Assembly: GCF_028583425.1 (NCBI RefSeq)
Contig: NC_072801.1
Location: 16,016,001-16,080,000 of the forward strand
Reading direction: 5' to 3'
Source: Eublepharis macularius
Lineage: Eukaryota; Chordata; Lepidosauria; Squamata; Eublepharidae
Length of the DNA: 64,000 nt
Position 1 is the stretch's first letter, and the number at the start of each line of letters is the position of its first letter. Of the stretch, positions 23,239 through 61,339 are shown in pieces. The notes under the pieces were generated by a model. That model searched no databases, had not been told where the DNA came from, and was given only the letters and a program-made list of their open reading frames with translations. Position numbers and translations under genes: made by a program.

Positions 23239-23400
23239 ACAGACCGGGATGCGCAAAGCGGGTGTCGAAGTTGTGTAATGGATCGCAATATTTTTTGGGG
23301 GGGAAGTAGGGCATTCCAAAAGCGAACTGGTGGGCATTGTATGGTTTAAGCCTGTCCCTGAACGTGCCAAAAGAGCCTTGAAAGAAACAGCGCTCTCTGT

Positions 23401-23594: not shown

Positions 23595-23639
23595 TATGTG
23601 TTGGTTTTGCCTTGCTTGCGCCTCCCCAAATGGCTCACC

Positions 23640-24270
23640 CTTCCTTTAATAGCCCGGCCCCGCCATCTGGAGCGCATTAGGCGGCCCAGCGCATCCCCGA
23701 AGGGCATTTCCCCTCCTCCGCCGCGATTCCCTTCCTCTCCGCCGAACTCCCGCTGGATCGGCAAGCCCGTTCTGGAGCGGCCAAGAACACGCGGCTCCAA
23801 AGGGCGCTCGAAAGAGGGGGGCGATCCCCGCCGTTGCTTCGCTTGCAGGCGAACGGAAAGAGGCGCTGGGCGAAGCGGGGAAGGAAGCCGCAGGCGAAGC
23901 GAGTCCCCATTCACGCCCGTCCGGGAGCGGCAGCAGCAGCAGCGGCAGCAGCGGCGGCCGGCCGGCCACCCGCCTTCGCTTTCCTGCCGCTTCTTCTGCA
24001 GACGCCTTTTGTCCTCCAGACCCTGCGGCGTTTCCTCTTTCCAGAGCAGGGAGCCGCCCGGGGCTGCGCCGCGTCCCGGAGCCCCGAGAGCGGGGCTGCT
24101 TCGCGGCGAGGTGGGGCCTGCTGCCCGCTGAGGTCGGGGCGTGCGGAAGGGAAGGGCGCGCTCGATGCGCCGGGCGGGGGTCCGCGTTGCCGCGGGAAGA
24201 TCCGTGGTAGGAGCGCTTCTGCTTCGGGAGAGACGCGGGTTGCTTGAAGACCTCGAAGCGGAGTGAGTCC
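23640..24270 (+). promoter_or_regulatory. CpG island, likely promoter and first non-coding exon
   Basis: G+C-rich with frequent CG dinucleotides against an A/T-leaning background, and free of MITEs although flanked on both sides by them. It contains a GCAGCAGCAGCGGCAGCAGC run at 23928-23951 and several GGGGCGG-type boxes. AAGCGGA followed by GTGAGT (donor at 24262) is a good splice donor 2 kb before the first coding exon of the large gene, so a 5' non-coding exon may end here. The ORFs of 190-230 codons on both strands are due to low stop density and alanine/proline/arginine-rich composition. Whether it also drives a divergent transcript cannot be told. Confidence 0.65.
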
Positions 24271-24473
24271 GGTGCTTGGAAAAGGGGAAGTGGGAAAAGT
24301 TTGAAACTGCCGCTCACTCCGGAGCAGGCTGCCTCCATTCATTCCCTGGCTGGTGGTTCCTTCAGCTGCTTTGCCCCCTCTTGCCCTCCCCAAGCCCTGG
24401 TGGGCGAAGGGGGAAATGAAGCTCTTGCTCCCCCCAAAACGTGTCCAAAGAGGCAATCCATCAGTCACTGGAA

Positions 24474-24713
24474 GCCATGCTACAAGTGAAGAATGACACT
24501 TGAACGGCAACTGAACGGACTTAGAGCCATGCTACAAGTGACGAATTACACTTGAACGGCAAGTGAACAGACTCACGTGTATTCCTCCCTGTTCACTTGC
24601 CCTCCACTTGCATTCCACTTGATCACATATGGAGGGCAAGAGAACAGGGAGGAATACACGCGAGTCTGTTCACTTGCCGTTCAAGTGTAATTCGTCACTT
24701 GTAGCTTGGCCCT
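24474..24713. mobile_element. Palindromic MITE, GRGCCAAGC family, with extra half
   Basis: Contains two left ends (near 24474 and 24523: AGCCATGCTACAAGTGA) and one right end (CACTTGTAGCTTGGCCC). Looks like an insertion next to or inside an older copy. Confidence 0.7.
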
Positions 24714-26243: not shown

Positions 26244-27117
26244 ATGGGTTCCCTTCAGCTAACGACAGTTCTGTTGTTGGTGTCTGTGTCGCTATGTGAG
26301 GTGGCCTCTCAGAACTTCATCAAGAATCCCAAGGAAAAGATGGAACATTTGCTCCTGATCAACGAGGTCAATGCAGATAATCCAGGGGACGACACCACCG
26401 AGTATGTGGAATTGTATCACACCAGTGGCCGGCGGGCCTCACTTGATGGCTACTTCTTGGTTTTCTACAATGGCAATGGCAACTCAGCCTACAGAGTGAA
26501 GGACCTCAAGGGCTTTTCCACTGACAGCCAAGGGTTCTTCCTCATTGGGTCCTCTGCAGTCACACCGCGACCATCGGTGATCCTACAAAAGAACACAATC
26601 CAGAATGGGCCAGATGCAATTGCTGTGTATTTTGGGAAGGGGTCCTTTTATGAAGGCATGATGGTCACCAATAAAGACTTGGTGGATGCCTTGGTCCATA
26701 AGTCGAAAATCAGCGACAAGGCAGATGATTTGGTCCGTATTCTGACTCCTGGCACAGAGCCTTTCTTGGAGGACCCGCTGTTCAGGACTGCAGATGAGTC
26801 ACTGGAGAGATGCCAAGGGGCAGATGCACGTTGGTTTTTCCAAGTGGCTATGCCAACCCCTGGTTCAGATAACCATTGTGTGCCTTTTGCGCAGCTGAAT
26901 GCAACCACAGCATTGATCAGTGAGGTCAATGTGGCGTCTTCCCCTGGGGAGTTTGAGTTTGTGGAACTACAAGGCCCTTCATCTACTGATCTCAAGGACC
27001 TGGTGATGGTGCTGATCGAAGGCAGCACCGGGAAGATCTACTTTGTCATGGAGGTGTCTGGCAGAACGTCTCCCGATGGGCTGCTTCTCATTGGTCCGGG
27101 CCAAGCCGGAACCCAAG
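26244..27117 (+). CDS. LTD gene, coding exon 1
   Basis: Encodes residues 1-291 and ends in phase 1 at CAAG followed by GTAGGG. MGSLQLTTVLLLVSVSLCEV is a clear signal peptide. LTD1 shows LLINEVN, TEYVELY, LDGYFLVFYNG, GFFLIG, NTIQNGPDAIAVY and LVDALVHKS, the strand order of lamin-tail domains, closing with C190 and C212. LTD2 starts at ALISEVN and continues into the next exon. The CpG island upstream suggests that a 5' non-coding exon precedes this; TTATCGTTCAG at about 26203-26213 could be the acceptor. Confidence 0.9.
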
Positions 27118-30100: not shown

Positions 30101-33100
30101 TCAGATCTTGCAAATTGGAAGGTGTGTCCTCCTTTATTGAGTCAAGACATCTCATTTTAGGTCTTTCTTTTTTCCTACTGTCTTCCACTTTTCCTAGCAT
30201 TATAGGGACAAGTAATTTCAGGTCTGATGAAGAGAGCTGTGGCTCTCGAAAGCTTATGCTACGATGAAGTTGGTTCATCTTAAAGGTGCTACTGGACTCT
30301 TTGTAATTCCAGGTGTTTCCTACTTTCTTGACAATTTAACTGATATCACTAGCCTAGTTCAAACATTAAATCCACATCTTCCAAACTGTAGTTTTGAGGT
30401 TGGAGAATAGGCAACATGCTCCAGTGTTCCCTCTTTTGGTTTATGATAACCATGGTTATCATAACTATATGATAACCATGGTTATCATAATGATACTAGG
30501 ATATTTGAATTGGGCAAATGGTGGTTATCTGAAACCAAAAAAGAGAGGGAAGGATTTTGTGAACCTGTGGTGTGTTCTTACCATAGTCTGGTGAGAGGTT
30601 CAAATCAGTCATCTAAGCTTATCAGTAATCTCCAAGCCACAATGCGTTTGGTTTGCCAGCCATGATGGGAGTTTCGTGAAAAGACAGCTGCCTGACTTGA
30701 TTGCAATAACACACAATGGCAGGGCTTTTTTTCTGGGAAAAGAGGTGGTGGAACTCAGTGGGTTGCCCTCAGAGAAAATGGTCACATGGCTGGTGGCCCC
30801 GCCCCCTGATCTCCAGACAGTGGGGAGTTTAGCTTGCCCTCGGTGAGGACGGCAATCTAAACTCCCCTCTGTCTGGAGATCAGGGGGCGGGGCCACCAGC
30901 CATGTGACCATTTTCAAGAGGTTCCGGAACTCTGTTCCCCCGCGTTCCCCCTGAAAAAAAGCCCTGCACAATGGTTAGATCTATTTGCCTGTCTGATTTT
31001 ATTTGCTCTCCCTTCAAGGAGTTCAGGGTGGCATATATGATTGTCTTTGTTTTATCCTCATAAACCTTTCAGATCTGTTAGGCTGAGAGAGAGAGGGACT
31101 GGCGAAAGATAAGCTTCATGGCAGTGCAGGGATTTAAACCTGGATCTTCCCTAGTCCTAGTCTGGAACTCTAACCATTACATGATGCTGGTTCTTAGCCA
31201 GAAAATGGAATCTGCCTGTATGCAGGGAGGAGGACGGGTCACCCATGCCCATAGTCCACGCCCTGTCCTCCAAATCATTGTTTGGAGGATCAGCTGATTT
31301 GAGGTACTGAGAAACTGTGACCTCGTCATGTTGATAACAACCCATTGATAGGATCCTTATCCTCAAGCAAAAAAGAGAAAGAGATGTGTGGATAAGCCCT
31401 TGATCCTGTTAGGGTAGATTGACTTTTGAGTTGCTTCTTGGGTGAGTCACCACCACATCAGAGACTGAGAATCAGTTCAAAGGTTGATGTTTTAAGATTA
31501 CCAAGAAAATGAAAATGAGTGTCTTATGGTGCTTTAGATGTATTGCCTTTTTTGCAGCATAAGCTTCTGCAGACTAGACCATGCTTTTCATGAGGCTGAG
31601 GTGTTCAAGAAGAACATGGAGACCTATTCATAACAGCAGAGCCGGTGTCAAGGGTCAGAACAGCCCACTGTTGCGCAGACATGCTTGGTCCATGTGCTTC
31701 CACCAAGAATGGGAGATTGCCCCAGAGGCAGGGCCAGCTCCAGTGTTGTCGGCACCTGAGGCAGCTTAATGCTGCCTCTGTGTGTGTGCGCATGCGCGCG
31801 TGTGATGATGTCACTGAGTGTGACGTCATCACGCAGGGGCTGGCACGTGCACGGGGAGCCTTCCAGCCCTCCCATTCAGTTGCTCTGCGGGACAGGCGTA
31901 GCCAGCCACCCTGGCCGCCGGCTGGGCCTGGCCAACAGAGTAAGTGAATGGGAGGCTGCCTGCTTAGCTGCCCCACGCTGCCACTGCCAGCATGCGCTCC
32001 TGACCGGCGGCGGCAGCAGCTCCATGGTGTGCGCCCCTGCCCCCAGGTCAGCGCCCCTCCGGCGCCTTAGCGCCTGAGGCGGCCACCTCACTAGCCTCAA
32101 TGAACGGGCCAGCCCTACCCAGAGGCCCTGTAGCACTCCAGGATCCTGTGAGGGAGTAATCTCCTACTTGCTGCAGGAAGTGGTGCCTGGCAGAGGGAGA
32201 AGAGACTAAGGGCCAAACTACAAGTGACGTCTTACACAGGTTGGACACTAGTCGGCTTCCCTCAAGTTTTGATGGGAAATGTAGGCATCCTGGTCTTGCA
32301 GCTGTAATGGAGAGCCAAGCTGTAAAACCAGGATGCTTACATTTCCCATCAAAACTTGAGGGAAGCCAACTAGTGTCCAACCTGTGTAAGACGTCACTTG
32401 TAGTTTGGCTCTAAGGGCCAAGCTACAAGTGATGGATTACACTTGAACGGCAAGTAAACAGACTCACGTGTATTCCTCCCTGTTCACTTGCACTCCATTT
32501 GCATTCCACTCGATCACGTAGTGATTCACGTAGAAACCAACAATACCCTGAATTTGCCATACTCTGAAAATCTTGTTGGTCTTTAAGGTGCCACTGGACT
32601 CAACTCCTGCTTGTCAGAAAGCTTTCCCTTTCTGCTGATATACAAGTCATTTGCCCCCTTAAACATTCTGTGTTTTGTTTCTCTTCACTGGACTACAGTT
32701 GACCTGCCGTTCCCACCAAACTCCAGCGTCCCCCTCCTCAAAGCAGGCCTGAATGCTGTTGCCCTGTACACAGGGGTCAGCAGCAGCTTTGCCCTGGGGT
32801 CTGTCGCCTCAGCCTCAAACCTCCTGGATGCTTTGGTTTACACGACAGTGGAAGGCTCGAGTTCGAAACTGCGGGATATTTTGACCCCTGGGAAGCCCGT
32901 CTTCTATGGGAGAGAACGGTGAGGAAGCAGTGTGGGGAACATGCCGTAGGAGGGAAGTCCTGTTTATGCAATGCTCTGTTCTAAAGCTGCAACGGGAATG
33001 TATTCAAATGAGAGTAACTTGCACAGCATATTAATTTTTATAATATTTCCATCGCACTTTGGCGCATGCAAAGCCCTTCACAGATATGGCCTCAGGACTT

Positions 33101-36100
33101 GCTACAACAACGCTGTAAGTTTCTGCTTTCAGATATTAGCAACTCTCAGCCAAGCTACAAGGACGAATTACACGAGGAGGAGCCACAGTGAAGGGAGTTG
33201 CAATGTTAGCGGGAAGCTGAGTTTTAAAAGAGATCAGAAGGCTTTGTCAATTTCCCCTCTCTACAGAGCCAGGGAGATCCCTGCTCAGAGGGTTTGTTAA
33301 TTTCCTCTTTGCCTCCAGAAGGCTCTGTCAGTTTCACCTCCCCTTCTAAGAGGGGAAGAGGAAATAAACAAACCCTCTGAGCAGGGATCCCCCTGGCTCT
33401 GTAGAGAGGGGAAACTGACAATGCCTTCCCATCCCTTTTAAAACTCAGCTTCCCAGCTAACATTGCGACTCCCTTCACGTGCTCCTCCTCGTGTAATTCG
33501 TCTCTTGTAGCTTAGCTCTGTCTTTCAGCTTCTTAACCAATACTTTAGGGTTAATACTGCCTTGCTTTACAGGCGTGTGATCTACACTGCTCAGGAAAAA
33601 ATAATATATGAAGACCAGGTTGCATTCTAGTTATCATCTTCTTGTTCTTGGAGGCCTTTGAAGAATTCCCGGAATGTTTCTCTAGCATAGATTGCTTCTG
33701 CCTACTTTTTGGGCTCAGTTCCAAGTGCTAGGCCGTTTTCACACTGCTTACTGGCCACGGAACATTGTGCCAAGTTCCCGGTACGACAGCATCTTCCTGG
33801 CACAATTTCACGTGAGAATTGTTCTCGCGCAAAATTGTGCCAGGAAGACGCTGTCATTCCTGGAGCTTGGCATAACGTTCCGTGGCCAGTAAGCAGTGTG
33901 AAAACGGCCCTAGTGATTGTTTACCTTTACAGCCCTTCTTCCTCAAGAATCTCTTCATCCTGTCAGGTCATCCGGAAGGCTTTGCTCTGCCTCCCATCCT
34001 TTTCCATGGGTCAAGACAGACAAAGACACAGAGAGGCCTAAGAGCCAAGCTACAAGTGACGAATGACACTTGAACGGCAAGTGAACAGACTCACGTGTAT
34101 TCCTCCCTGTTCACTTGTGCTCCACTTGTGCTCCACTTGATCGTCAAGTGGAGTGCCAGTGGAGGACAAGTGAACCGGGAGGAATACATGTGAGTCTGTT
34201 CACTTGCCGTTCAAGTGTCATTCGTCACTTGTAGCTTGGCCCTAAGACTGGATCCCAGAATTGCCAACTTGTACTTTAGAAATGGCTGGAAATCTGGGGG
34301 TGGTACTTGGTGAGGGCTAAACTGTAGCCGCTAAAGTGTAAGACCAAAATTCTACTTTCTTACTATTTCTTCTATTTTACTTTGTTTCTCTCCCCCACTC
34401 CCCGGGTTAATCGCCAGCAGATCCCAGCAGGGTAATACATCTATGAGCAGGTGTGCCTGCTGCTCCACTACTCGCGATCCCTCCATCTACACACTTGGAA
34501 AGCCCACGCCGCGGAGCTTCAACGATTGCCCCAAGAAGCGTTTCAGTCAAGAAATTTCCTTGTGTCTTCAAGCTGCAGGTGGGTGCTATGAAGTCTGACA
34601 GCATGAGCTTTGTGTGGTTAAACAGCATGTAGCCACTCCGAACCAATACAAAAAAGGTGAGCAGAGGGACTGATTTTTATTTGTAAGCAAAAGGGCCCAG
34701 CAGGTGAGGTGTTTGGAATCTTGCCCTTGCTTGCAGTTTACCTCTCATGGGCTGCTTCCACACACGTTGAATAATCCACTTTCAATACTCTTTAGTGAAC
34801 ATTTGAAACTGATTTTCCATGTGTGGAACAAAAAATCCACTTCTAAAGGATTGCAAAAGTGCATTGAAAGTGCATTAGTCAACGCGTGTTGAATTATTCA
34901 ACGTGGAAATGGCCATGGTTTCATGCCTCAAGTTATTTCTCCTTAGCCTTCCTTGGATGCCAGAAATTACTTCAGGTAGGAGAAAAGTGCTGGGGAGGGG
35001 GGGATGAGGGAAGAATTGTGACTGCTTACCTGCCAGCTTTTTTGGCTTTTAAGTTCTTCCCCTCCACTCCTCTTCATAGTGAGCCTGTAGGTGAGTGGCA
35101 GAGACTCTGCTTTGCATACAGAAAGTCCCGGGTTCAATTCCTGACATTGGAGATAATGTGATGGGCAAGTCCTTCACCTGAGACCTCAGAAAGCTGTTGC
35201 CGTTTAGGGCAGACAGTACTGACTTTGATAGACCAACGGTCTGATTCCGTATAAGATGGCTTCACATGATTGTTTAAGCACAAAGCTGCCCTTGGCTAAA
35301 GTGTAATGTGGCTATTGGAGGTCTGCTAGGTTTTATGGGCATACCAAGAAGACAGCTGTGAGATCAAAACATTAATTATACAACCCAAGGTGCAAAACAT
35401 TGAATGGCCCAAAGAATCCTGCGGCAAGACTTAGATTTGAAAAACAGGAGTCTCCGTTTCTGTGCTTGCACTGGAAAGGCCACACAAGAACACATGCAAC
35501 TGCCCAACCGAACAAAAGAATATTGGAAAGTCCCAGGGCTTTTTTTCAGGGGGAACGTGGTGGAACGGAGTTCCGGAACCTTTTGAAAATGGTCACATGG
35601 CTGGCGGCCCCGCCCCCTGATCTCCAGACAGAGGGGAGTTGAGATTGCCCTCCGCGCCGCTCCAGCGGCGCGGAGGGCAATCTCAACTCCCCTCTGTCTG
35701 GAGATCAGGGGGCAGGGCCGCCAGCCATGTGGCCATTTTCTCCGAGGGCAACCCACTGAGTTCCACCACCTCTTTTCCCAGAAAAAAAGCCCTGGAAAGT
35801 CCCAAACATTTATTTATTAATATATTTATTAATTCCTTTGTTTAATCATTGTCTTCCTCCACCATATCCACTGCTCAAAATTAGCTTCCTGTTAATCAAG
35901 GTTAAAAAACAGGGAAGTACAACAAGTCTAACAACAAGCTTTAAAAAATCCACATGGCCTGTAAAAACAGCTTGTATCTGGAAGAACCCTACCTTAGGCA
36001 GTGCTGCAGGCCCTTAAGCCAGTAACCGTAAAAGCCCGCAAAAGATGCCTTTTGTACATATCCTGGCTGCTATTTGCTGGCAAGAAGGCCAGCGGCCCCA

Positions 36101-48100: not shown

Positions 48101-51100
48101 AAACTTTTCTCCCTTCCTTGTAACGAGGAATGAATGACCAAGTGATTGGCCAAAGGCAGGGCTTTTTTTCTGGGAAAAGAGGTGGTGGAACTCAGTGGTA
48201 GAACTCATGACTGCACAATGTCATCACTGGGTCAGCTGGAACAAGGGGGGAGTTTTTTAAAGTTTAAATTGCCCTTGGCGAAAATGGTCACATGGACAGT
48301 GGCCCCGTCCCCTGATCTCCAGACAGAGGGGAGTTTAGATTGTCCTCCGCGCCGCTCAGTGGGCAATCTCAACTCCCCTCTGTCTGGAGATCAGGGGGCG
48401 GGGCCACTGGTCATGTGACCATTTTCAAGAGGTGCCGGAACTCCGTTCCACTGCCTTCCCGCTGAAAAAAAGCCCTGGCATAGGTCAGTCTAAGTTTCAT
48501 ACTTCTCAACAGCTGATGCTTTCCTCCATGACTTAACGATTTATGCTTTGAAACTCCTTTGTCCTATCAAGAAACTTCACAGCATGTCCCAATGAAATTC
48601 ATGCTCTGCCTTCCTCCTACACGTTGCTTGCCTTTCCCACCATGTTATCCCGTTTATCTTTCCAGACCAGCTGATTGCACCCTATGTTTGGAGCAAACTT
48701 TCTGCACAGCAGGAATTTCAGGCTGTTGTAGTGACCAGCCGTGTGCCGCAAGTCCATAATGGCACTTTAATGACCGGGGAGAACATAGAAGACGCAGTGG
48801 CTTTTACACTAGAGGCCAATGCCAGCCCAGGACATCTGGGATTTCTGGGACCAATCCATGTCATTTCTAAGAGAGGAGAAAGGTAAGGGGGCTTATGACT
48901 TGGAATGCAGCCAAGGTCCTCGGCTTTGTTGGAGGATTACAATTACATACACCCTGCTATTGACTTGTTGGTGCTGCTGATTTGGTAGTGCTGGTTGCTT
49001 GGATTTTCCTTCTAGTGTCCAGCAAATAGGGGTGTGGCTTCCATGGGTCTGAGGGTCAAATCACATGACACAAAATACATTTGAATTACACTCGAATTAC
49101 ATCCAAATACACTCGAATTACAAAATACACTCGAATTACCTGTGTAGTTAGAGTATATTTTGTCTTGTGTGGTGAGACCCTGATTGGAGGGGAAGTAGGG
49201 TGGGATTTAACTGCTGAAAAGGGGCTGTGAAATCCTGTTTGCCTGAAGACCAGAGTCAGCCGTGCTACTGTCAGGAACAAAAAAGTGTTGGTACATGTAA
49301 CAAATATTCGTTAGCAGATTTTCTTTTAAGAATTCACCAGACCTCTCAACTAGATCACAATCTTCTATAGCCAATAACAATTTAAAATTAACCTGATGAG
49401 TTAATTTCTTTAGTGTTTTCTTTAGTGTTCCTGTGCAAGATCTGTTGGAAATCCCTCCCCCCACAATTTTTGCATTGAAAATGTTTGCTAGTGAATATCG
49501 TGTGCTTCCACTATTAATATTGTTACCTGAATTGGTCTCTTTGCAAATAAGAGAATTGTAGGGGGGGGGGATTAGAGGCAAGGAAGATGGCTATACGAGA
49601 GGGGTAATGATGAGGGTTTTTTTGCCAGTTTTTATGGAGTCCCTTCCCCAAGATAGCAGATGAGTTCAAAGAGCAATCTTTTATTGAAGAGAAAAAACAC
49701 ACGCACACACAGGAGTAAATAATAAAAATGGTTGCACACACACAGAGTCCTAGGAAGCTAGCCAGAAGTTGGAATAGAACGAGGGAGAGGAAGTATATCT
49801 ACCTATCCTGAAGAGTAGTCCAATCCACGGAGGAAGAGAGTAGCTTCAAATGTCCAGTGTCCTTGGCCAGGAGAGCAAGAGGCTTGAACAACCTCAAGGG
49901 GACAGCACTTCGGATCCAATAAGCGTGCTCAGTTTGAATGGGTCAAGGGTCCCTATTCTTATAGGGCAAAACATGCCTGAGGCAGGAGAGCCCTTCCAAC
50001 CATTGGAACAAAAGACTCCAATGGTCAGTTCCTGGGAATAACAAAGGTTTGATTACCTTGATTGCTTGCTGCTGGGGTGTGTAAAAGAGAATGCAAAGTT
50101 TCTCCTGGAACTGCACAAAAGGGCAGTTTGTTAATGGGTTCCATCAGAGCTGAGTTGATGAATTTAGTTGGGGAATGTACCTTTCCCAGGAATTAATTAT
50201 AAAACCTTATGAGTGCTAATTGATTTCTCCTCAATCATGGGTTGGGGAGCTCATCACAAAAGGAGGGGAAGGAATGTGCTAAGTGGGAAGATGCTATGAG
50301 ACCTTTCTTGCTCCAGCTCCACCCAGAGCTGAGAGGACTGTAAACGAATCACCGCTGGTCATTCTCCATTCATGCCTTCATCTCTGAGGCGGGACTCAGC
50401 AACTGCTAGCTGGAATTCCCCTGTTTGCAAACCAAGCTGCATTTAATCTAGGGGCCTTGTGATTTTATATCACAGGTAACTATATTTAAATAGCTATTAA
50501 ACATGGTGGAGGCCAGGCCGACTGCTTACAATTTAAGGCTTGCTATTTCTTTGACAGGCCAGTATCCTTGAGCCGCTGTTCGTATTGTAGCACAACCTTT
50601 GCCGTCTCAGAAACCACCCCTGGCTTGGAGAACAGCTGCCCCCAGGAGTCTCTTTCTATGGTTTTTGAAATATGCCTGCAGACACCCAGTAAGAGAATCT
50701 CCCTCCATGACAATGGAAAGAAGGTTTAGAATGGACTTAAGCAGAGGCTTATCTTCCCTCCCAAAAATGGATAAAATGTGACAAATCTATTGACACCTAG
50801 TTTCCTGCTTTATATTTTTTAAAATGTGCTTCTAAACTCTCAACCCTCAGAAAACTAACAGAAATCTACCCAAGGTCTTTTGTTAACATGCTAGTTTTGT
50901 ACATGGTAGGAACACAAGTTTGAATTTTGGCCCATGTAAAAAACTTTTTGGAAAATCACACAGGGGATGCTCTTTGGTTCACAACTGTCACATTTAAATT
51001 GGGTCTGAATCCCGATTTAGACTAACAACATTTAAACTAACATTTAATTGTAGACTAATAGCATTTAATATGTGCTGTCATGAGTCGTATTGAAATAAAC

Positions 51101-54100
51101 GTTGTTAGCCTTGATGCTACTAGACTTACTTTATTTTGCTATGACAGACTAACATAGCTGTGGGTGTTGTGCCATCAAGTCATTTCTGACTTATGGTGAC
51201 CCTATGAATTCATGGCCCTGACCAGAATGGCCCAGGCTAGCCCAACCTCATCAGATCTCGGAAGCCCTGGGGGACCACCAAGGACGTTCAGGATCGCTAT
51301 GCAGAGGCCGCAAAGGCAAACTGCCCCTGTTCGTCTCTGCCTTGAAAACCCTATGGTGTCGCCATAAGTCATCTGAGACTTGACAGCACTTTCCACCGTG
51401 AATTAATTACCCTCAAAACTTCCTATAATCGACACTAACATGGCTCCTGCTTTGTAATAATCATGGAAGACTTGGCCCTTTTACCATCCCAGTCAATTGC
51501 ATATGTCTGACTCCTTGTCCACCTGCTAGATTGCTCCATGTGGTCTCAGAACCCCTCGATGCTGGCTCGTTTCCAAAGGGCACTGGCGGACTCCATGGAG
51601 GAGAATTGTTCCTGTGGCATCTCTCCATGTTATTTGCAAGGTTTGTATGAAACTCACCTATAAAGCCAACCTACGAAATTTGCATCTGCACCAGGCAGCG
51701 ACGTTCTCATGATGCTACCTTATATGCAATCAGATCATTGGCTTGTCAAACTGAGGGCCAAACTACAAGTGATGAATGACACTTGAACGGAAAGTGTATT
51801 CTTCCCTGTTCACTTGCCCTCCACTTGCTCTCCACTCGATCCACTTGCCATTCAAGTGTCATTTGTCGCTTGTAGCTTGGCCCTGAGTCTGGTGTATTCT
51901 GATTGGCAGCAGCTCTCAAGGAATCTCAGAGGGGGATATTTCATATCACTGGGTACCTGATCCTTGGGGATTCATCTTGGGGCCTTCTGCATACCAAGCT
52001 GAGCTTGGCCTCTTCCCTGTCTCGAGAAGTATTCTTGCACAGAAAGTGCTACATCCCACAATACCTTTACCTTTAAGGTAGCAATCTTCCACCACAATCC
52101 TATGCAGTTACTCCAGTGACAGTCAAAACCTATTAAAATCAGACAGCCTTGCCCTGATGTAACTCTGAAACAGCCTGCAGTTAAGTGTGTTTACTTGGGA
52201 GATTGGACTAAATGAATGTTTGCTGCCATCCATCTGTTGTGGGCAATGATAGAAGTTTGAAGCTATAATGTCTTCGGCCTGTTCTTTTTTTATTCTGGGT
52301 TCAATTTTTATTCTCCCTCTTTCTTTTCTAATATTTTCTGTTTTCTTTGTTTCTATTTTTCCTGCTGGCCCTCTAAACATCTTATCTTTTTGTAGGGTTT
52401 AATTTCACCTGTTTCAGCTCTGTTCTGAAGCTCTCCGGTCAGTTGTGGGCCAGGTCTTCCGAGCAGCTCCAGCTCCTGTCTAAGTGGCAGGCTGACTTCT
52501 CCAGAAGCCCGCACCCTTTCCTTGTGGATGGGAGGCTGCTCAAACCAAATAGATCGTGCTCAGAGTCGGGAAGGACACTGAAGTTTGAAGGTGAGCAAAT
52601 GAAAAAATTCCCGGAAGAGCAGAGGAGTTGGAATGATGTTGTGTTGAACCCCTATATTTGATTATATGGGTAATATGTTGCATGGTTTAAAGGGAGCGAT
52701 GTCTTTTCCCCCCAACCGTTGTTTGGAACCTACCAGCCATTAATGAAAGGACTGTCTTATCTGAAGAATGGCTCAGTGGCAGTGCGAGGTATCGGTTTTT
52801 ACATACAAAACTCTTCATGGCCTTGGCCTGACATACCTGTGGGACCGCCTTCCTCCCTACGTCCCTCCATGGCAGCTTTGCTCATCTGAACAGGGTCTCT
52901 TGCAGGTGCAAGCCTGCACATGGGCGAAATCAACAGCGGCCCATACATGGGCTTTCCCCTACCCTGTGGAACGACCTACCTGGGGAGGTCAGAGAGCTCC
53001 CACGCTCTTGGCTTTCCACAAGCAATGCAAAACCAAATTATTCAAAAAGGCTTTTTACTCAGATAGGAGGGCGGTATTGTAGGCAGGGGGTCTCAGATGC
53101 TTCGCTAATGAGTTAGGGACCATAGACTTCATCACTATGTTGCCTTACATATTATCTGTTGCTTTAAATATGTACTCCTATGTACTACTTGTGCTTCATG
53201 TTGTCTAATGTCAGTCCTAGAATTATGTTCTGTTTCAGCAATTCTTCAGTCCCATATTGGATCCTTGCTAATGCTATGTCTTTGTAAACTTGCATTCATT
53301 TACTCTATGACATTGTTTATGGAAATGTCCTTGACACTGTGTGGAAATGTTCTTGATACTGACTGTACTAATCTCACACTATGTAATCCGCCTTGAGTCT
53401 CAGTGAGATAGGTGGACTATAAATGAAATAAATAAATAAAACACTGAAGGTCCCAGGTTCAATCCCCAACCTCTCCAGTTAAAAGGACTAATAGGTGATG
53501 CGAAAGGCCTCTGCATGAGACCCTGGACAGCAGCTGCCAGTCTGAGTAGACAATACTGAACTTGACGGACTCATTCAGTTTAAGACGGCTTCACGTGTGC
53601 TACGTGTCCATGCGCTGGAAACCATATAACCAAATAACACTACTGTTGCTTCATGGTCAAATGAAACGGAGCTTGTGTGCGTCAGATCGTTCTTAATGGG
53701 CAGTAGGAAGCAAGGCATGTTAAAAGAGAAATTCTGGAGAATATAGGGCTTTATTTTCACACTGCAATCCAATTTGAAGGGGGGGGGGAAATGCTGTATG
53801 TGAAAACACTTCCGCTCTTTCTTTTCCCCTAGAGGTTTGGCCCGCATGCCCCCCAAATACACATCCCATCCTTGGCTACTGCATCTTTCTCAAGAAAAGT
53901 CATCTGTGCTATCCATTTCATTTTCCCAGGAGGCTGGGGTTTGTGATAAACACTCCATAACATGTTCGAAGACAACTGTTGTTTTAAGACTTCACCAACC
54001 AAAACATCACAAATTAGCGAGAAGCTTTTATATTCCATAGAAGTCTTCAACAGGCTGAATGTTAGGTACAAACGAAAAAACAGCGAGGGAAGGAAAAAAG

Positions 54101-55715
54101 ATTTTTTAGAGCTCAGTGGAGAAAGCCCCTTGTCTCCAGCACGTCAACATGGAATTCAGGATATGAGGAGACAGAATTGGATTTGGTGGGAGGAGATCCT
54201 TATCCAACCTTGAAACGGTGGGGGGGGGGGCCGCACCGGCAGCCAGAAGGAGAGGGTGAGGGTGAAGTACGGGAATTGTCCCTCACCTCTGTTGCCTCTT
54301 CCTCTATTTGAGGTTATGTCACAGCCCCGCCCCCAGATGCCTCATTATTTGGTGAAGTTTCTTTCACAATGTAGAAACCACCAGCCTCTTCCCAAACTTT
54401 GCATCTCTGCAGTTGTTTTTAATTATAAATACACTGGAGGAATTAGGTGGGTCAAGGCAGGCTATATGAAGATCCACACTAAATACAAGATAGGGGGGAA
54501 GCTTGAAGTTAGAACAGCAAGCAGCAGCAACCTGTCACACGCTGACCCCCCGCCATATACTTGTACATTGGGAAGGGTTTTCATTGTGAACTGCTGGGAG
54601 AATCAAATCTGGCTTAAAAGGGGGGTATTAGTGCATCCAAATGAATAATTGCTAGACTTTGGCAGGAGTGACCCTGTTCATACAGAAGATATCTTGCAGG
54701 TTGTAGGAAGTCAAGGCAGACAGACGATTAATGCTAATTTCTTCCTTAATTTTTTTTTTTGGCAGCTTCATTCCGGACTTGGGAAATTGCACTTGTTATC
54801 CTAGGATCTGTTTTGCTTTTCCTGCTGTTAACCGGTATAGCATTGTATTACATCAAAAGGTAAGGGTTGGTGCCTCTTCTCCCCCGTTCTGCATTCTGCT
54901 TTGTATCATTTTGGCTGCTGATATTAGACAAGGCAAAGGACAGGGGGAACGGTCCCAAACTCCAAAGCAAAGGCACACTAAGGACACGCCAAAAGACCGC
55001 TGCTGCAATCCAAAGCTTTATTCATAAATGCTGAGGGTCAAAATCAAAAGGATGGGGGAGCGCCCACTCTCTCCGGCTGCTCCCGGCAGGAGATTGGCAA
55101 CAGGTTTGCCTGGCTAAATTGTCCCGTTTCGCAAAGCTCACAGCTTCATCAAAAGCCACAAATGAATTCTTAGTGTAAAGCGTATTCCTTTACTACAAAG
55201 TAACCTGCTGGACAAGAGTCAAGTTTCTTCTTAGTTTTAGTTCAACAATATTTCCTCTCTTGTCCTTTTGATTTTGACCCTCGGCATTTATGAATAAAGC
55301 TTTGGATTGCAGCAGCGGTCTTTTGGCGTGTCCTTAGTGTGCCTTTGCTTTGCTGATATTAGACTACTTAAGGTAGAAAACAAAAACAAAAAAGTTAAGT
55401 ACATTTGCCTGCTTTTGGTAAATGTTACAGAATTTCTGGCTTCAGAAATGCAGAAAGGCAGACTAGAAATGAAGCTAATTAATAGTAATAATGTCACATA
55501 AAAATAATTCTTACAGAATTTCTTGTTTCAGAAATATAAAGTTGTGGCATAAAGTGAATCTAGCATAGATACCCTTGTGATACAGTCACTCCCTGCTGGG
55601 CACACCAGCAAAAGCTATGCGGCCACCTTGAACTCCTTTTCTCTTTTCCAGACGGCCTCAGAATTACACCACCATTGAGATGAATGACCGCTGCGAGATA
55701 ATGGAGGGCATTTGA
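26244..55715 (+). CDS. Four-LTD type I membrane protein (unnamed), 13 coding exons
   Basis: I reconstruct exons 26244-27117, 32699-32918, 34421-34578, 36200-36301, 38342-38539, 39933-40492, 45872-46175, 48666-48882, 50558-50688, 51530-51640, 52396-52590, 54766-54859 and 55652-55715. All introns are GT-AG and the frame is continuous: 3228 nt, 1075 residues. Residues 1-23 are a signal peptide. Four lamin-tail-like domains follow: about 36-212 (LLINEVN 37-43), 223-400 (ALISEVN 223-229), 537-715 (LLINEVN 537-543) and 733-900 (VLINEV). Each pair is followed by a Cys-bearing linker and a helical module (about 401-517 and 901-1023). The transmembrane helix is 1031-1053 and the tail 1054-1075 carries YTTI (1060-1063). 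Many N-glycosylation sequons lie on the outer part. LTDs are known in lamins and in secreted bacterial proteins. Here the function is inferred only as cell-surface adhesion or recognition. I do not recognise a named orthologue. Confidence 0.85.
27165..27365 (+). mobile_element. tRNA-derived SINE in intron 1
   Basis: GTTGTGGTTAGCATGTTGGG with B-box-like AGGTTTGAATCTCGACTC, and a 3' half with GGATGGTTGTAAGGGTAAAA. It starts only 47 bases after exon 1. Confidence 0.6.
27668..27786. mobile_element. hAT-type MITE family A, right half only
   Basis: Carries AGAGGGCAATATAAACTCCC through TGAAAAAAAGCCCTG. The left arm is absent, so this is a deletion derivative in intron 1. Confidence 0.75.
27787..28693. 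other. Intron 1 segment without recognised features
   Basis: No exon-like frame with splice signals and no classified repeat was found. Confidence 0.35.
28694..28927. mobile_element. Palindromic MITE, GRGCCAAGC family, subfamily 2
   Basis: GGGCCAAGCTACAAGTGACG followed by CCTGACACAGGTTGGACAC, with the inverse at the right (GTGTCCAACCTGTGTCATTC). The right terminus has decayed. Left flank TGA. Confidence 0.75.
28928..29705. other. Intron 1 segment without recognised features
   Basis: Only a short AAT run near 29377. Nothing supportable. Confidence 0.35.
29706..29964. mobile_element. Palindromic hAT-type MITE, family A
   Basis: CAGGGCTTTTTTTCAGCTGG to AAAAAAAGCCCTG, flanked by TATGTATG and TATGTATA (8-bp duplication with one mismatch). 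Confidence 0.88.
30012..30200 (+). repeat. Unclassified interspersed repeat
   Basis: GTGCTGTCAAGTTGCCTCCA, ATCCTTTCATTAACAATAGC and TTGAGTCAAGACATCTCATT are motifs of a widespread amniote repeat whose class I cannot name. Directly followed by a Penelope-like tail. Confidence 0.5.
30218..30310 (+). mobile_element. Penelope-like tail with hammerhead-like core
   Basis: CTGATGA at 30224-30230, a 5-bp stem GAGAG/CTCTC, GAAA at 30248-30251, then GCTTATGCTAC and TTAAAGGTGCTACTGGACTC. No coding part. Confidence 0.75.
30435..30495. repeat. Two adjacent perfect palindromes
   Basis: 30441-30464 (24 bp) and 30468-30489 (22 bp) share the core ATGATAACCATGGTTATCAT. They sit in the centre of a larger imperfect inverted repeat from about 30390 to 30600, likely a MITE. 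Confidence 0.85.
30720..30966. mobile_element. Palindromic hAT-type MITE, family A
   Basis: CAGGGCTTTTTTTCTGGG to GAAAAAAAGCCCTG with exact 8-bp duplication CACAATGG (30712-30719, 30967-30974). Confidence 0.92.
31005..31195 (-). mobile_element. tRNA-derived SINE, minus strand
   Basis: Reads on the minus strand as the same family as 47737: B-box region near 31130-31150 (GGGATTTAAACCTGGATC in plus), followed toward lower coordinates by the GGCTGAGAGAGAGAGGGACT inverse. Confidence 0.6.
31496..31580 (-). mobile_element. Penelope-like tail, diverged
   Basis: Minus-strand reading gives CTGCAGAAGCTTATGCTGC then AAAAGGCAATACATCTAAAG, a decayed tail. Confidence 0.4.
31729..32117. mobile_element. GC-rich hAT-type element, family C
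   Basis: CAGGGCCAGCTCC to GGGCCAGCCCTA with exact 8-bp duplication CCCAGAGG (31721-31728, 32118-32125). Contains GTGACGTCATCACGC and shares the GGCACCTGAGGC and GCGCCTGAGGCGGCC motifs with 17843. No transposase. Confidence 0.9.
32210..32411. mobile_element. Palindromic MITE, GRGCCAAGC family, subfamily 2
   Basis: GGGCCAAACTACAAGTGACG to TTGTAGTTTGGCTC with 3-bp duplication TAA on both sides. Confidence 0.85.
32415..32522. mobile_element. GRGCCAAGC family subfamily 1, left half
   Basis: Begins GGGCCAAGCTACAAGTGATG right after the TAA of the preceding element and stops after GATCACGTAGTGATTCACGT. The right arm is lost. Confidence 0.65.
32567..32612 (-). mobile_element. Penelope-like tail remnant
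   Basis: TTGTTGGTCTTTAAGGTGCCACTGGACTC is the end block of the Penelope-like tails, about 85 bases before exon 2. Reads in the plus sense; only the last block survives. Confidence 0.5.
32699..32918 (+). CDS. LTD gene, coding exon 2
   Basis: Residues 292-365 approx., phase 1 in and phase 2 out, between GACTACAG and GTGAGG. It completes the core of LTD2: GLNAVALYTG aligns with GPDAIAVYFG of LTD1, and NLLDALVYTT and DILTPGKPVFYGRER align with DLVDALVHKS and RILTPGTEPF. NSS is a glycosylation sequon. Confidence 0.9.
33148..33519. mobile_element. Large palindromic MITE, GCCAAGCTACAAG terminus, subfamily 3
   Basis: Arms of about 170 bases: AGCCAAGCTACAAGGACGAA on the left and TTCGTCTCTTGTAGCTTAGC on the right, with internal inverted AACCCTCTGAGCAGGGATCC segments. 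Only the outer 20 bases match the other subfamilies. Confidence 0.75.
33731..33909. mobile_element. Palindromic MITE, GGCCGTTTTCACAC family
   Basis: GGCCGTTTTCACACTGCTTA to AGTGTGAAAACGGCC with 3-bp duplication CTA. Inner arms carry TGGCCACGGAAC. Termini and duplication length fit PIF/Harbinger-type MITEs. Confidence 0.8.
34042..34242. mobile_element. Palindromic MITE, GRGCCAAGC family, subfamily 1
   Basis: GAGCCAAGCTACAAGTGACG to CACTTGTAGCTTGGCC(C) with TAA on both sides. Nearly complete palindrome with a short centre. Confidence 0.85.
34421..34578 (+). CDS. LTD gene, coding exon 3
   Basis: Phase 2 in, phase 1 out. The acceptor CGCCAGCAG precedes ATCCCAGCAG; this choice, not the next CAG ten bases on, keeps the frame. 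It encodes SRCACCSTT, KPTPRSFNDC and CPKKRF, homologous to SLERC and MPTPGSDNHC of LTD1 and to SRCSYCSTT and TPGLENSCPQES of exon 9. A long pyrimidine tract precedes it and GTGGGT follows. Confidence 0.88.
34752..34912. mobile_element. Palindromic MITE, TTCCGCACAC-like family
   Basis: GCTTCCACACACGTTGAATA on the left and CAACGCGTGTTGAATTATTC on the right, with ATCCACTTTCAATAC and GCATTGAAAGTGC in the arms. Diverged from the copy at 20028. Confidence 0.6.
35083..35275 (+). mobile_element. Sauria-like SINE
   Basis: GTGAGTGGCAGAGACTCTGC A-box region, GGGTTCAATTCCTGAC B box, and the GGGCAGACAGTACTGACTTT and GGTCTGATTCCGTATAAGAT motifs typical of squamate tRNA-SINEs. Confidence 0.75.
35534..35794. 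mobile_element. Palindromic hAT-type MITE, family A, near-perfect
   Basis: CAGGGCTTTTTTTCAGGGGG to GAAAAAAAGCCCTG with exact 8-bp duplication GAAAGTCC (35526-35533, 35795-35802). The centre GCGCCGCTCCAGCGGCGC is a perfect short hairpin, so this may be among the youngest copies. Confidence 0.93.
36200..36301 (+). CDS. LTD gene, coding exon 4
   Basis: 102 nt, phase 1 to phase 1, between CTTGTTCTGCCAG and GTAAGG. It encodes CPQESPEQHNIVTALAQALD, the start of the first helical module; the homologous exon 10 encodes CSMWSQNPSMLARFQRALAD. An open frame extends upstream past the acceptor, but only this acceptor joins exon 3 in frame. Confidence 0.85.
36517..36963. mobile_element. hAT-type MITE, family B
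   Basis: CAGGGCTCATTTCGAGGGGG to AAATGACCCCTG, flanked by ATGGGAAC and GTGGGAAC (8 bp, one mismatch). In intron 4. Confidence 0.85.
37262..37475 (-). mobile_element. tRNA-derived SINE, minus strand
   Basis: GGATTTGAACCTGGGTTTCC is the B box in inverse and GCTCTAACCGCTACACTGCA the A-box region in inverse. A GA microsatellite lies at 37356-37372. Confidence 0.7.
37645..37835 (+). mobile_element. tRNA-derived SINE, diverged
   Basis: AGTCATTGTGGTTTAGTCGA and GGTTGAGATCCCTATTTTAC mark the tRNA-like part; CTCAGCCTGGCCTACCTCAC is the shared body. Abuts the next SINE. Confidence 0.6.
37839..38102 (+). mobile_element. tRNA-derived SINE, well preserved
   Basis: GGGAGCCAGTTTGGTGTAGT, B box GGGTTTGATTCCCC, GGGCATTAAGTTGTCCTGAA and a (GTT)n tail. 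Same family as 6276. Confidence 0.85.
38342..38539 (+). CDS. LTD gene, coding exon 5
   Basis: 198 nt, phase 1 to phase 1, after TTCTCTTCAG and before GTAGTC. It encodes the rest of helical module 1: DVTVACQG, MARSAEQLTALLRDFSLF and two sequons (NST, NVT). Exon 11 is its counterpart (FTCFSS, ARSSEQLQLLSKWQADF); the ARS.EQL..L motif is the best anchor. Confidence 0.9.
38865..38985 (-). mobile_element. Sauria-like SINE fragment, minus strand
   Basis: TCTGGGACCTTCTGCATGCT and GCTCAACCACTGAGCAACGG are the inverse of the B- and A-box ends. Confidence 0.55.
39094..39260. mobile_element. Palindromic MITE, GGCCGTTTTCACAC family
   Basis: GGTCGTTTTCACACTGCTTA to AGTGTGAAAACGGCC with 3-bp duplication ATG. 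Second copy of the family at 33731. Confidence 0.8.
39302..39569. mobile_element. Long near-perfect palindrome, GAGCCAAAAC terminus
   Basis: Arms of roughly 130 bases with few mismatches, from GAGCCAAAACACGTTAAGAA to TTAACGTGTGTTTTGGCTC, flanked by ATA. The centre is GCGCCTGTATTTCCC against GGGAAATACAGGCG. Confidence 0.85.
39933..40492 (+). CDS. LTD gene, coding exon 6 (LTD3)
   Basis: 560 nt, phase 1 in and phase 0 out (TTTCCAG then GTAATT). A complete LTD3: LLINEVNPDNPG, TEYIELFYPG, LRGYWLVLYNGKN, GYFLVGSDG, NTIQNGVDAVALY, LVDAVVYKSRGSEKADKLL and SLSRCHS. It is the closest match to LTD1 in the protein, spaced 500 residues from it. The acceptor TGGTCTTTAAAG is weak in pyrimidines but is the only in-frame choice near the open frame. 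Confidence 0.9.
40595..40930 (-). mobile_element. Sauria-like SINE, minus strand, split by a MITE
   Basis: CCTTATGCTGAGTCAGATCC and AGGGTCAGTATTGCCTACGC belong to the inverse SINE 3' part, interrupted at 40663-40869 by a palindromic MITE. The upstream half (near 40880) is poorly preserved. Confidence 0.5.
40663..40869. mobile_element. Palindromic MITE, GRGCCAAGC family, subfamily 2
   Basis: GAGCCAAGCTACAAGTGACG with CCTGACACAGG to CGTCACTTGTAGCTTGGCTC. Inserted in the SINE. Confidence 0.85.
40931..41850. other. A/T-rich intron 6 segment
   Basis: A/T-rich, no exon-like frame, no termini or target duplication recognised. Confidence 0.35.
41872..42061. mobile_element. Palindromic MITE, GRGCCAAGC family, subfamily 1
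   Basis: GGGCCAAGCTAGAAGTGACG to ATTTCTGGCTTGGCC(C), flanked by TGA on both sides. It lies within a minus-strand SINE (41850-41871 and 42065-42115). Confidence 0.85.
42401..42776. mobile_element. hAT-type element, TAG...TGGCAACCCTA family, GC-rich
   Basis: TAGTGCTGCCAGACCCCC to GGTGGCCTGGCAACCCTA with exact 8-bp duplication TGCAGCAC (42393-42400, 42777-42784). Contains two inverted TGACGTCA-type sites around 42638-42670. Related at its ends to 5999. Confidence 0.88.
43712..44138. mobile_element. hAT-type MITE, TAGAGATGGGC family
   Basis: TAGAGATGGGCATGAACC to TTTGTGCCCATCTCTA with exact 8-bp duplication CTAGTGAC (43704-43711, 44139-44146). Filled with GGTTCGTTT and GAACCA repeats in both orientations and an internal short tandem of AGAAGTGA. 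Confidence 0.9.
44147..45197. other. Intron 6 segment, little recognised
   Basis: A SINE 3' remnant lies near 45060-45160 (GAGTTGTTACGAGGATTAAA). A C run is at 44641-44652. Otherwise nothing assigned. Confidence 0.35.
45198..45323. mobile_element. hAT-type MITE family A, left half only
   Basis: CAGGGCTTTTTTTCAGCAGG through GAGTTGAGATTGCCCTCGGC, then breaks off just before a GRGCCAAGC element. The right arm is absent. Confidence 0.8.
45337..45538. mobile_element. Palindromic MITE, GRGCCAAGC family, subfamily 2
   Basis: GAGCCAAGCTACAAGTGATG to CACTTGTAGCTTGGCTC with TGA duplicated at both ends. It sits at the break of the preceding hAT half-element. Confidence 0.88.
45680..45838 (+). mobile_element. 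tRNA-derived SINE, diverged
   Basis: GGTGATTGGTGTAATAGATT A-box region, AGGTTGAAAATCTTACTC B-box remnant, GGAGGAAGGGTGGAATAAAA at the 3' end, ending 33 bases before exon 7. Confidence 0.5.
45872..46175 (+). CDS. LTD gene, coding exon 7 (start of LTD4)
   Basis: 304 nt, phase 0 in and phase 1 out, after TGTTTGTGTTTCAG and before GTACGT. SVLINEVGLGNSS, QFFELKG, LKGYSLAFFSGWDHKPY and GLFVILPE match LTD strands; C716 closes LTD3. Sequons NST, NHS and NSS. In the first cassette this region is fused to LTD1 in exon 1, so the phase 0 intron before it is unique to the second cassette or was lost from the first. Confidence 0.9.
46470..46694. mobile_element. Penelope-like dumbbell: inverted head plus tail
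   Basis: An inverted tail copy meets a direct copy at CAGATGCATCGACGCATCTG. Flanks CTAGGATT (46462-46469, 46695-46702) are an 8-bp duplication. Ends ACACAGCTAACTCCTCTGGAT. Confidence 0.75.
46703..47736. other. Intron 7 segment without recognised features
   Basis: No exon-like frame with splice signals, no classified repeat. Confidence 0.35.
47737..47960 (+). mobile_element. tRNA-derived SINE
   Basis: GTCTGGGAGACCCTGGTTCG with B box GGTTCGAATCCCC, GGGTTGTTGTGAGGATAAAA in the body, tail GATGTAAGTAAATAAA. Confidence 0.75.
48157..48477. mobile_element. Palindromic hAT-type MITE, family A, longer variant
   Basis: CAGGGCTTTTTTTCTGGG to GAAAAAAAGCCCTG with the extra left block (ATGTCATCACTGGGTCAGCT). 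Target duplication poorly preserved. Confidence 0.88.
48666..48882 (+). CDS. LTD gene, coding exon 8 (end of LTD4)
   Basis: 217 nt, phase 1 in, phase 2 out, after CTTTCCAG and before GTAAGG. Counterpart of exon 2 (220 nt, same phases). NIEDAVAFTLEANASPG takes the place of GLNAVALYTG; the domain is more diverged than LTD2. Sequons NGT and NAS. Confidence 0.85.
49050..49185. mobile_element. Small palindromic repeat with ACTCGAATTAC tandem
   Basis: TCAAATCACATGACACAAAA on the left and TTTTGTCTTGTGTGGTGAGA on the right form inverted ends around three or four TACACTCGAATTAC units. Superfamily unknown. Confidence 0.55.
49608..50474 (-). mobile_element. Solo LTR (fossil)
   Basis: An 867-bp unit with TG...CA ends, flanked by the 5-bp duplication GGTAA (49603-49607, 50475-50479). 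Read on the minus strand an AATAAA signal lies toward its 3' end. Internal genes are absent, the usual outcome of LTR recombination. The 5-bp duplication fits Gypsy-type or class III-like retroviral elements; the exact family is not known. Located in intron 8, opposite to the host gene. Confidence 0.75.
50558..50688 (+). CDS. LTD gene, coding exon 9
   Basis: 131 nt, phase 2 in, phase 1 out, between TTTCTTTGACAG and GTAAGA. SRCSYCSTT, TPGLENSCPQES and EICLQTP match exon 3 (SRCACCSTT, TPRSFNDCPKK and SLCLQAA), including all Cys positions. Confidence 0.88.
51075..51150 (+). mobile_element. Penelope-like tail remnant
   Basis: AATAAACGTTGTTAGCCTTGATGCTACTAGACTTAC and GACAGACTAACATAGCTG follow the tail order; heavily diverged. 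Confidence 0.45.
51218..51400 (+). mobile_element. 5S rRNA-derived SINE
   Basis: GCCCAACCTCATCAGATCTC followed by GGAAGCCCTGGGGGACCACC resembles the 5S rRNA promoter part; the rest (GTCTCTGCCTTGAAAACCCT, AGTCATCTGAGACTTGACAG) matches the body of the better copy at 62244. In intron 9. It is preceded by a CATCAAGTCATTTCTGACTT repeat remnant. Confidence 0.7.
51530..51640 (+). CDS. LTD gene, coding exon 10
   Basis: 111 nt, phase 1 to phase 1, after CCACCTGCTAG and before GTTTGT. It encodes NCSMWSQNPSMLARFQRALA and ENCSCGISPCYLQ. Counterpart of exon 4 but with three additional Cys, which may form local disulfides. Confidence 0.85.
51755..51883. mobile_element. Palindromic MITE, GRGCCAAGC family, shortened
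   Basis: GGGCCAAACTACAAGTGATG to GCTTGTAGCTTGGCCC with TGA at both ends; the centre is deleted relative to other copies. Confidence 0.8.
52396..52590 (+). CDS. LTD gene, coding exon 11
   Basis: 195 nt, phase 1 to phase 1, after TTTTTGTAG and before GTGAGC. Helical module 2: FNFTCFSSVLKLSGQL, ARSSEQLQLLSKWQADFSR and PNRSCSESGR. Counterpart of exon 5. Sequons NFT and NRS. Confidence 0.88.
52763..53440 (+). mobile_element. CR1/L2-type LINE 3' fragment
   Basis: The peptide FTYKTLHGLGLTYLWDRLPPY and LLAFHKQCKTKLFKKAF is the conserved C-terminal part of ORF2 of this LINE clade. The fragment ends CCGCCTTGAGTCTCAGTGAG, then GGACTATAAATGAAATAAAT and an AAAT microsatellite. 5'-truncated, in intron 11. 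Confidence 0.75.
53441..53600 (+). mobile_element. Sauria-like SINE, 5'-truncated
   Basis: GGTCCCAGGTTCAATCCCCA (B box), ACCTCTCCAGTTAAAAGGAC, GAGACCCTGGACAGCAGCTG, GAGTAGACAATACTGAACTT. Typical squamate SINE body, joined to the LINE tail. Confidence 0.75.
54766..54859 (+). CDS. LTD gene, coding exon 12 (transmembrane)
   Basis: 94 nt, phase 1 in, phase 2 out, after a T-rich tract ending GGCAG and before GTAAGG. ASFRTWE then a 23-residue hydrophobic helix (IALVILGSVLLFLLLTGIAL and YYI), then K and R as the cytoplasmic stop-transfer side. Confidence 0.92.
54930..55350. mobile_element. Retroposed unit with 90-bp inverted repeats and 14-bp target duplication
   Basis: Flanked by TGCTGATATTAGAC (54916-54929, 55351-55364). 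Arms about 54964-55053 and 55260-55350 are inverse copies containing AATAAAGCTTTGGATTGCAG. The middle, read on the minus strand, has TTGATGAAGCTGTGAGC followed by GCGAAAC, like the hammerhead-type core of Penelope-like tails. In intron 12. Confidence 0.75.
55652..55715 (+). CDS. LTD gene, last coding exon 13
   Basis: Phase 2 in, after TCTCTTTTCCAG. Encodes RRPQNYTTIEMNDRCEIMEG and I, then TGA at 55713-55715. Tail of 22 residues with YTTI, a YxxPhi-type endocytic sorting signal in form, and one Cys. Confidence 0.92.
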
Positions 55716-61312: not shown

Positions 61313-61339
61313 GGAAGGAGAAGCCAAGAAAGAAACAGT

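Follow-up and report, generated by a model that had tools for sequence, protein, structure and literature searches.

A putative Eublepharis macularius membrane protein with four lamin tail domains of the secreted bacterial type

Nuclear lamins are intracellular proteins that combine a coiled-coil rod with one lamin tail domain (LTD). LTDs are also found in many secreted bacterial proteins, where their role is called unsettled in the accessible parts of the literature. As far as the available text of the respective papers goes, they were proposed to give secreted DNases additional DNA-binding parts that help hold DNA (PMC4486849), and external LTDs were predicted to bind extracellular DNA or polysaccharide (PMC12419801). 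The accessible portions of two experimental reports describe what happens upon removal of the domain: Xds lacking its LTD retains comparable nuclease activity, with a slight reduction in one of the assays, and its membrane association is unchanged (PMC6746945), and ExeM without its LTD clears DNA in vivo nearly as the wild-type does and degrades it slowly in vitro (PMC6085458). Judged by title, none of the papers surveyed on the "lamin tail domain" (outside subscription journals) deals with a vertebrate cell-surface LTD protein. Two leads from this literature were set aside, since the "LTD domain" of a catshark protein is SMP-LTD, a different thing, and a mussel shell lead concerns filament proteins. 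A vertebrate transmembrane protein composed of four bacterial-type LTDs was not found in the literature searched, relative to which such an array, putatively present in the gene described here, is new, the LTD family itself being already known.

The window analysed here is a 64,000-nucleotide stretch of the Eublepharis macularius genome. Reading exons directly from the raw sequence, we obtained a plus-strand gene of 13 coding exons, which runs from the ATG at 26244 to the final base of the stop codon at 55715 (about 16042244 to 16071715 on the 81-Mb contig). All 12 introns are GT-AG, all junctions are in phase, and the 3228 coding bases (stop included) contain no internal stop and encode 1075 residues. 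This rebuild arrived at the same span, protein length and number of coding introns as the initial annotation of the locus. The start codon has an A at position -3 and a G at +4, and upstream of it no further in-frame ATG occurs before the nearest in-frame stop is reached. Base composition marks a CpG island some 2 kb ahead of the start codon (23301-24600, no strand assigned): nine 500-base windows starting at 23301-24101 have a GC content of 0.57-0.72 and a CpG observed/expected ratio of 0.75-1.04. The island likely belongs to the LTD-array gene as its promoter region. The gene is real and intact, and it probably has a database entry as an uncharacterised protein. Its introns contain many short dispersed repeat families (27684-51895), possibly SINEs; among them, a 127-base unit occurs five times, and two units of 107 and 108 bases, which neighbour each other, occur four times each.

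The encoded protein consists of two tandem blocks, each made of two LTD units (A and B) and a further module (L). Behind the signal peptide follow A1 (residues 33-217), B1 (218-417), L1 (418-523), a spacer, A2 (533-719), B2 (725-921), L2 (922-1027), a transmembrane helix and a 22-residue tail (KRRPQNYTTIEMNDRCEIMEGI). Exon 1 (26244-27117) covers the stretch from the start through A1 into the first half of B1, whose second half is encoded by exon 2 (32699-32918) and whose Cys-rich C-terminal part (SMSRCACC...TPRSFNDC) by exon 3 (34421-34578). The phase 1-1 exon 4 (36200-36301) specifies the first part of L1, and exon 5 (38342-38539) its second part plus spacer. In the other block, exon 6 (39933-40492) comprises spacer and most of A2 (from residue 533 on), and exon 7 (45872-46175) by the gene model the end of A2 and the first half of B2. 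The second half of B2 lies in exon 8 (48666-48882), the counterpart of exon 2; its Cys-rich C-terminal part (VSLSRCSYC...TPGLENSC) in exon 9 (50558-50688), the counterpart of exon 3; and L2 in exons 10 (51530-51640) and 11 (52396-52590), the counterparts of exons 4 and 5. Exon 12 (54766-54859) carries the transmembrane helix predicted from hydropathy (about residues 1031-1053), and exon 13 (55652-55715), again by the gene model, the cytoplasmic tail with the tetrapeptide YTTI and the stop codon. The motif positions of the initial annotation, which had placed LLINEVN-type unit starts at residues 37, 223, 537 and 733, are exact for the first and third, and for the other two shift to LISEVN at 224 and LINEVGL at 734.

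That the blocks arose from one another is indicated by both protein sequence and gene structure. A1 and A2 are 47% identical, and in all six pairs of A and B units none of 500 shuffles reached the alignment score (z of 75 for A1-A2, 30 for A2-B1, 25 for B1-B2, 22 for A1-B1, 14 for A1-B2 and 8.6 for A2-B2). L1 and L2 are likewise related (z 14, 0/500 shuffles). Between L modules and LTD units no relation was seen in the two pairs compared, A1-L1 and B1-L2, whose scores were reached by 197 and 475 of 500 shuffles, respectively. Besides, five introns occupy matching places in the same phases in both halves. One is inside B (phase 1), one at the end of B, ahead of exons 3 and 9 (phase 2), and the three around L are all of phase 1. 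Only the phase-0 intron near the A2/B2 border (exon 6/7) is absent from the first half, in which exon 1 is continuous. The simplest history would start from an ancestral gene of the order A-B-L-transmembrane, followed by a tandem duplication of its A-B-L part.

Since both blocks are complete repeats, one might ask whether two genes were joined in our model, namely one for a secreted A1-B1-L1 protein and a separate one for an A2-B2-L2 membrane protein. The acceptor of exon 6 is indeed weak (score 1.8), and the intron after this exon has one marginal CpG-rich window (42301; GC 0.60, observed/expected 0.62), which, being located after exon 6, cannot be the promoter of a gene beginning there. However, there is a splice donor and no stop codon at the end of exon 5, exon 6 carries on in phase, the second block does not start with a signal peptide but with polar residues (GATSEKPGATKEP), and the clear CpG island lies upstream of exon 1. 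We therefore consider two joined genes highly improbable. There is also only a very slim chance that the locus represents a recent pseudogene or an unexpressed relic. While unit B2 is degenerate and the most diverged of the four by sequence, thirteen exons without stop or frameshift and 12 canonical junctions argue against decay. Moreover, A1 and A2 differ at 0.45, 0.33 and 0.69 of first, second and third codon positions (183 codons), and this concentration at third positions is the pattern of a constrained protein, although it speaks for past rather than present constraint. The NG86 estimate of dN between the two units is 0.54; as dS is saturated, no dN/dS is given.

The hydropathy profile of the protein would be consistent with a signal peptide and a single transmembrane helix in a type I layout, values above 1.6 being confined to 19-residue windows starting at residues 2-4 and 1025-1036 (the latter reaching up to 2.77). 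Together with the short tail, the peaks at both ends agree with the topology given in the initial annotation. The protein contains 15 N-glycosylation sequons and, outside the tail, 23 cysteines, one of which is inside the signal peptide. It is from these sequence features, i.e. hydrophobic ends, sequons and cysteines, that we infer a location at the cell surface. All four units end in RC...N-x-C, and this conserved cysteine pair (RC...TPxxxNxC) probably forms a disulphide in each of them. Taking these features together, the gene very probably encodes an intact single-pass type I membrane glycoprotein with two A-B-L blocks. The connecting segments, previously described as Cys-containing linkers, do harbour cysteines and in addition include module L as a second duplicated element. 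This cysteine-bearing, unclassified module (exons 4-5 and 10-11) has the motif ARSxEQLxxL in common between its copies, and L2 lies just outside the membrane. It reminds us of SEA-like juxtamembrane modules, a likeness that we treat as an assumption; searches of L1 and L2 against Pfam returned no family up to E 10, SEA included.

The assignment of the units to the LTD family rests on Pfam for A1 and A2 and on more distant comparisons for B1 and B2. The Pfam LTD model (PF00932) matched two stretches of the protein, with 62.3 bits (E 6.6e-17) for the whole sequence and the best match at residues 531-632 in A2. When searched by exon, exons 1 (35.7 bits; A1, residues 37-104) and 6 (35.3 bits) passed the cut-off of 34.3, and a 135-residue cut of A1 alone stayed just under it (31.4 bits). 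B1 and B2 alone gave no Pfam LTD match. Their membership is supported by their homology to the A units and by a profile of bacterial LTDs described below, so that the four LTD units proposed in the initial annotation hold up. No other Pfam family was found above its own cut-off in the 1075-residue protein. PDB sequences contained no relatives of the whole protein up to E 10, and a profile of the four units retrieved from them only chance-level matches (three sequences, E 0.44 to 1.5). Consistent with the earlier treatment of the protein as unnamed, no named receptor family matched in Pfam, NCBIfam or the PDB sequences. In a PF00932 search of the source genome, with four candidates scored, only exons 1 and 6 of the present gene were found; because the same search missed the lamins, it leaves room for paralogues.

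Across bacterial and archaeal genomes, relatives of A1 and A2 were found at one locus, in a protein with fn3 domains from a Bacteroidales metagenome-assembled genome (L003). Aligned end-to-end, the LTD of this protein is 39, 39, 36 and 31% identical to A1, A2, B1 and B2, and none of 1000 shuffles reached any of these scores. Among the 149 genomes related to that of L003 (itself included), 14 matched A1 at E values up to 1e-4, the best being 1.5e-29. Eight of the 16 matched places correspond to "long" LTDs of ~180 residues, which have in common, with variants, an IQNGxDAVALY core and an SLxR...TPGxxN tail. A profile built from these eight (L003, L005 and L007-L012, chosen by eye from the 16, with the other eight, shorter or weaker, left outside) assigned 126.9 bits to A1, 122.1 to A2, 69.1 to B1 and 16.0 to B2, compared with 6.2 as the highest value among 1000 shuffled units. 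A1, A2 and B1 matched over their whole length, whereas in B2 (E 4.8e-4) the profile aligned only roughly the first 65 residues. With the same profile we scored seven short LTDs, L015 and L019 being outside this set: six of them, including one from an ExeM, obtained 24-36 bits and the intermediate L014 obtained 72. When the profile of the four units was compared with the L003 domain by hhalign, the probability was 99.8%. A tree of 19 rows united the four vertebrate units in one group (support 92/95, not starred), which is drawn among the bacterial long LTDs and separate from the short LTDs. This tree omits L015 (no tblastn match), L019 (same result as L014) and L004 and L006 (same place as L003), and it has its weak points, with three of 16 inner branches starred, the long L008 drawn weakly beside short LTDs, and a B2 branch of 3.1. 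By sequence, then, we assign the four units to the ~180-residue LTDs of secreted bacterial proteins and not to the lamin type.

Some Pfam results for the bacterial relatives tell against this assignment. hmmscan did not list an LTD in L003 up to E 1, and a six-frame search reached 29.4 bits, under the cut-off; in four of the five bacterial proteins scanned (all but L009) an LTD was recorded, each time below the cut-off. These five proteins (L003, L005, L007, L009 and L011) also have fn3 or HYDIN-type Ig-like domains, with a cadherin-like domain in L011 and a secretion-sorting tail in L005. Adjoining the fn3-LTD protein at L003 is a sulfatase-like ORF (44-1366, recognised by eye), which would fit polysaccharide handling. 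One member of the profile, L012, is unlike the other bacterial rows in being a 308-residue ORF with a lone long LTD, four cysteines and a long branch; it could be a eukaryotic contaminant of the bacterial genome, in which case it would hint at other eukaryotic long LTDs. Phages yielded no relatives of A2 at E 0.01, and relatives of A1 were present in two plasmid records.

LTDs of animals being best known from lamins, and the units bearing the same Pfam family name, another conceivable source would be the animal's own lamins, with LTDs acquired through exon shuffling and moved to the extracellular side. Yet, the hhalign probability that reached 99.8% for L003 dropped to 0.1% for the LTD of lamin A, and with the long-LTD profile the lamin A tail scored 0.4 bits, below its own best shuffle (3.8). 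Furthermore, the units carry the SLxR...TPGxxN tail of the bacterial domains. A match to the Filament family (coiled-coil rod) was absent from the 1075-residue protein up to E 10. With lamin A as the animal LTD compared, an origin from lamins strikes us as extremely improbable.

As to what the protein might do, we found no enzyme domain in it with Pfam or NCBIfam, which makes binding its likely job. Four beta-sandwich LTD units would together form a multivalent ectodomain, which may bind an extracellular polymer or surface ligand, be it nucleic acid, polysaccharide or glycoprotein. The YTTI motif of the tail, which we take to be a YxxPhi-type sorting signal, would suit uptake from the surface, and clathrin-dependent internalisation of the bound ligand would follow. 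It is the lack of an enzyme domain together with this motif that makes us favour a recognition and uptake receptor, even though the mechanism itself is put forward tentatively. Several points tell against it. YTTI amounts to four residues within a tail of 22 and may occur there by chance; no ligand for a bacterial LTD was found in the accessible text of the literature searched; and removing the domain changed little for Xds (PMC6746945) and gave mixed results for ExeM (PMC6085458). Besides, given how far B2 has diverged, not every unit need be functional.

Alternatively, the protein could mediate cell-cell or cell-matrix adhesion, its LTD array making protein-protein contacts in the manner of an Ig or fn3 ectodomain and uptake being incidental. 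Those bacterial relatives that were scanned resemble adhesins in combining several domains, among them fn3, Ig-like or cadherin-like ones, and the repetition of two blocks, the sequons and the many cysteines would fit adhesion ectodomains as well. On the other hand, a cytoskeletal-linker motif was not recognisable by eye in the short tail, and we know of no partner. With respect to mechanism we give adhesion the same, tentative weight as recognition and uptake. Our best explanation overall, a type I membrane glycoprotein of the above anatomy acting as a recognition and uptake receptor, has in our estimate a probability of about 0.5.

The genomic surroundings allow the locus to be placed relative to the human genome. 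In 130 kb of flanking sequence, exon-like stretches were compared with PDB sequences and Pfam, which identified V-ATPase subunit c (E 1.1e-39) and AMDHD2, the N-acetylglucosamine-6-phosphate deacetylase (E 2e-75), upstream and IFT140 (E 5e-53; IFT140 propeller model) downstream. The LTD-array gene sits between AMDHD2 and IFT140, and a DUF4615 exon (36.2 bits) lies between AMDHD2 and the window. By eye, we further recognised what we take to be RNPS1 (about 16.091 Mb) and TMEM204 (about 16.149 Mb), whose exons had no passing match in Pfam. In human, these flanking genes lie in 16p13.3, a region in which, to our knowledge, no human LTD gene is known. Towards the margins of the window, the three plus-strand frames of 1-5200 and the three minus-strand frames of 59300-64000 gave no Pfam family up to 0.01. 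A plus-strand ORF at 58309-58788 encodes an endonuclease domain of the GIY-YIG family (25.7 bits against a Pfam cut-off of 22.6, E 1.4e-5) and is, we assume, most likely a remnant of a Penelope-like retroelement. Also on the plus strand, a 149-residue ORF (15937-16386) resembles by eye the C-terminal end of a LINE reverse transcriptase, and in a 176-residue ORF (1797-2327) a hydrophobic stretch (MEAEVWVVYLCLFLVVLVYFLMKKK) comes after an ATG, the rest being polar. The latter ORF might represent exon 1 of a gene for a small membrane protein; its 140 residues from the ATG on had no Pfam match up to E 1.

From these observations one may speculate, at what we regard as rather long odds, that vertebrates possess a second, non-lamin line of LTDs, which has the secreted bacterial form and makes up a four-unit surface receptor whose ligands are extracellular polymers, for instance DNA or polysaccharide. 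Some vertebrates would have retained this line, and the corresponding 16p13.3 block of humans would lack it. Whichever function applies, an ectodomain consisting mostly of LTDs in a vertebrate would be a clean system for learning whether these domains act in recognition, and the protein may thereby help reveal what LTDs do outside cells. It also raises the question of whether these LTDs were inherited from long ago and lost elsewhere or were acquired by transfer. Since the vertebrate line is far closer to Bacteroidota than to lamin A, the term "lamin tail domain" is misleading for part of the family.

How, then, does the protein compare with the LTD carriers described so far? With the nuclear lamins it shares the Pfam family name, yet there is no detectable sequence similarity between its units and the LTD of lamin A/C (PDB 1ifr). 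The ExeM/NucH/Xds nucleases resemble it in having an extracellular LTD, and the LTD of the Loktanella ExeM is 34.8% identical to A1 over 58% of this unit (E 5e-8). However, LTDs of the ExeM type are short (36 bits with the long-LTD profile for Loktanella), the NCBIfam ExeM model, with its cut-off of 1300 bits, gave the vertebrate protein a weak 18.9 bits (E 3.1e-4), and no nuclease (EEP) domain was detected in it, with no Exo_endo_phos match up to E 10; among the bacterial proteins scanned, the nuclease was found in an ExeM (L021), accompanied by a short LTD. A further case is the CotH proteins of the ichthyosporean Creolimax, which, according to the accessible part of the report, are holozoan, secreted and equipped with an N-terminal LTD (PMC4739763), though they differ by their CotH domain and are likened here by description only. 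The nearest counterparts are the long LTDs of bacteria, which correspond to the vertebrate units over the whole ~180 residues, including IQNGxDAVALY and SLxR...TPGxxN. In all five of the eight that were scanned, they are part of multi-domain proteins that also have fn3 or Ig-like domains, and among the matches listed (stretches of mostly ~3.5 kb) there is one per genome, as opposed to four in the single vertebrate protein. Six of the eight bacterial units have no cysteine at all and L005 has a single one in the corresponding part, so that the RC...N-x-C pair, found in none of the eight, sets apart the vertebrate units, all four of which carry it.
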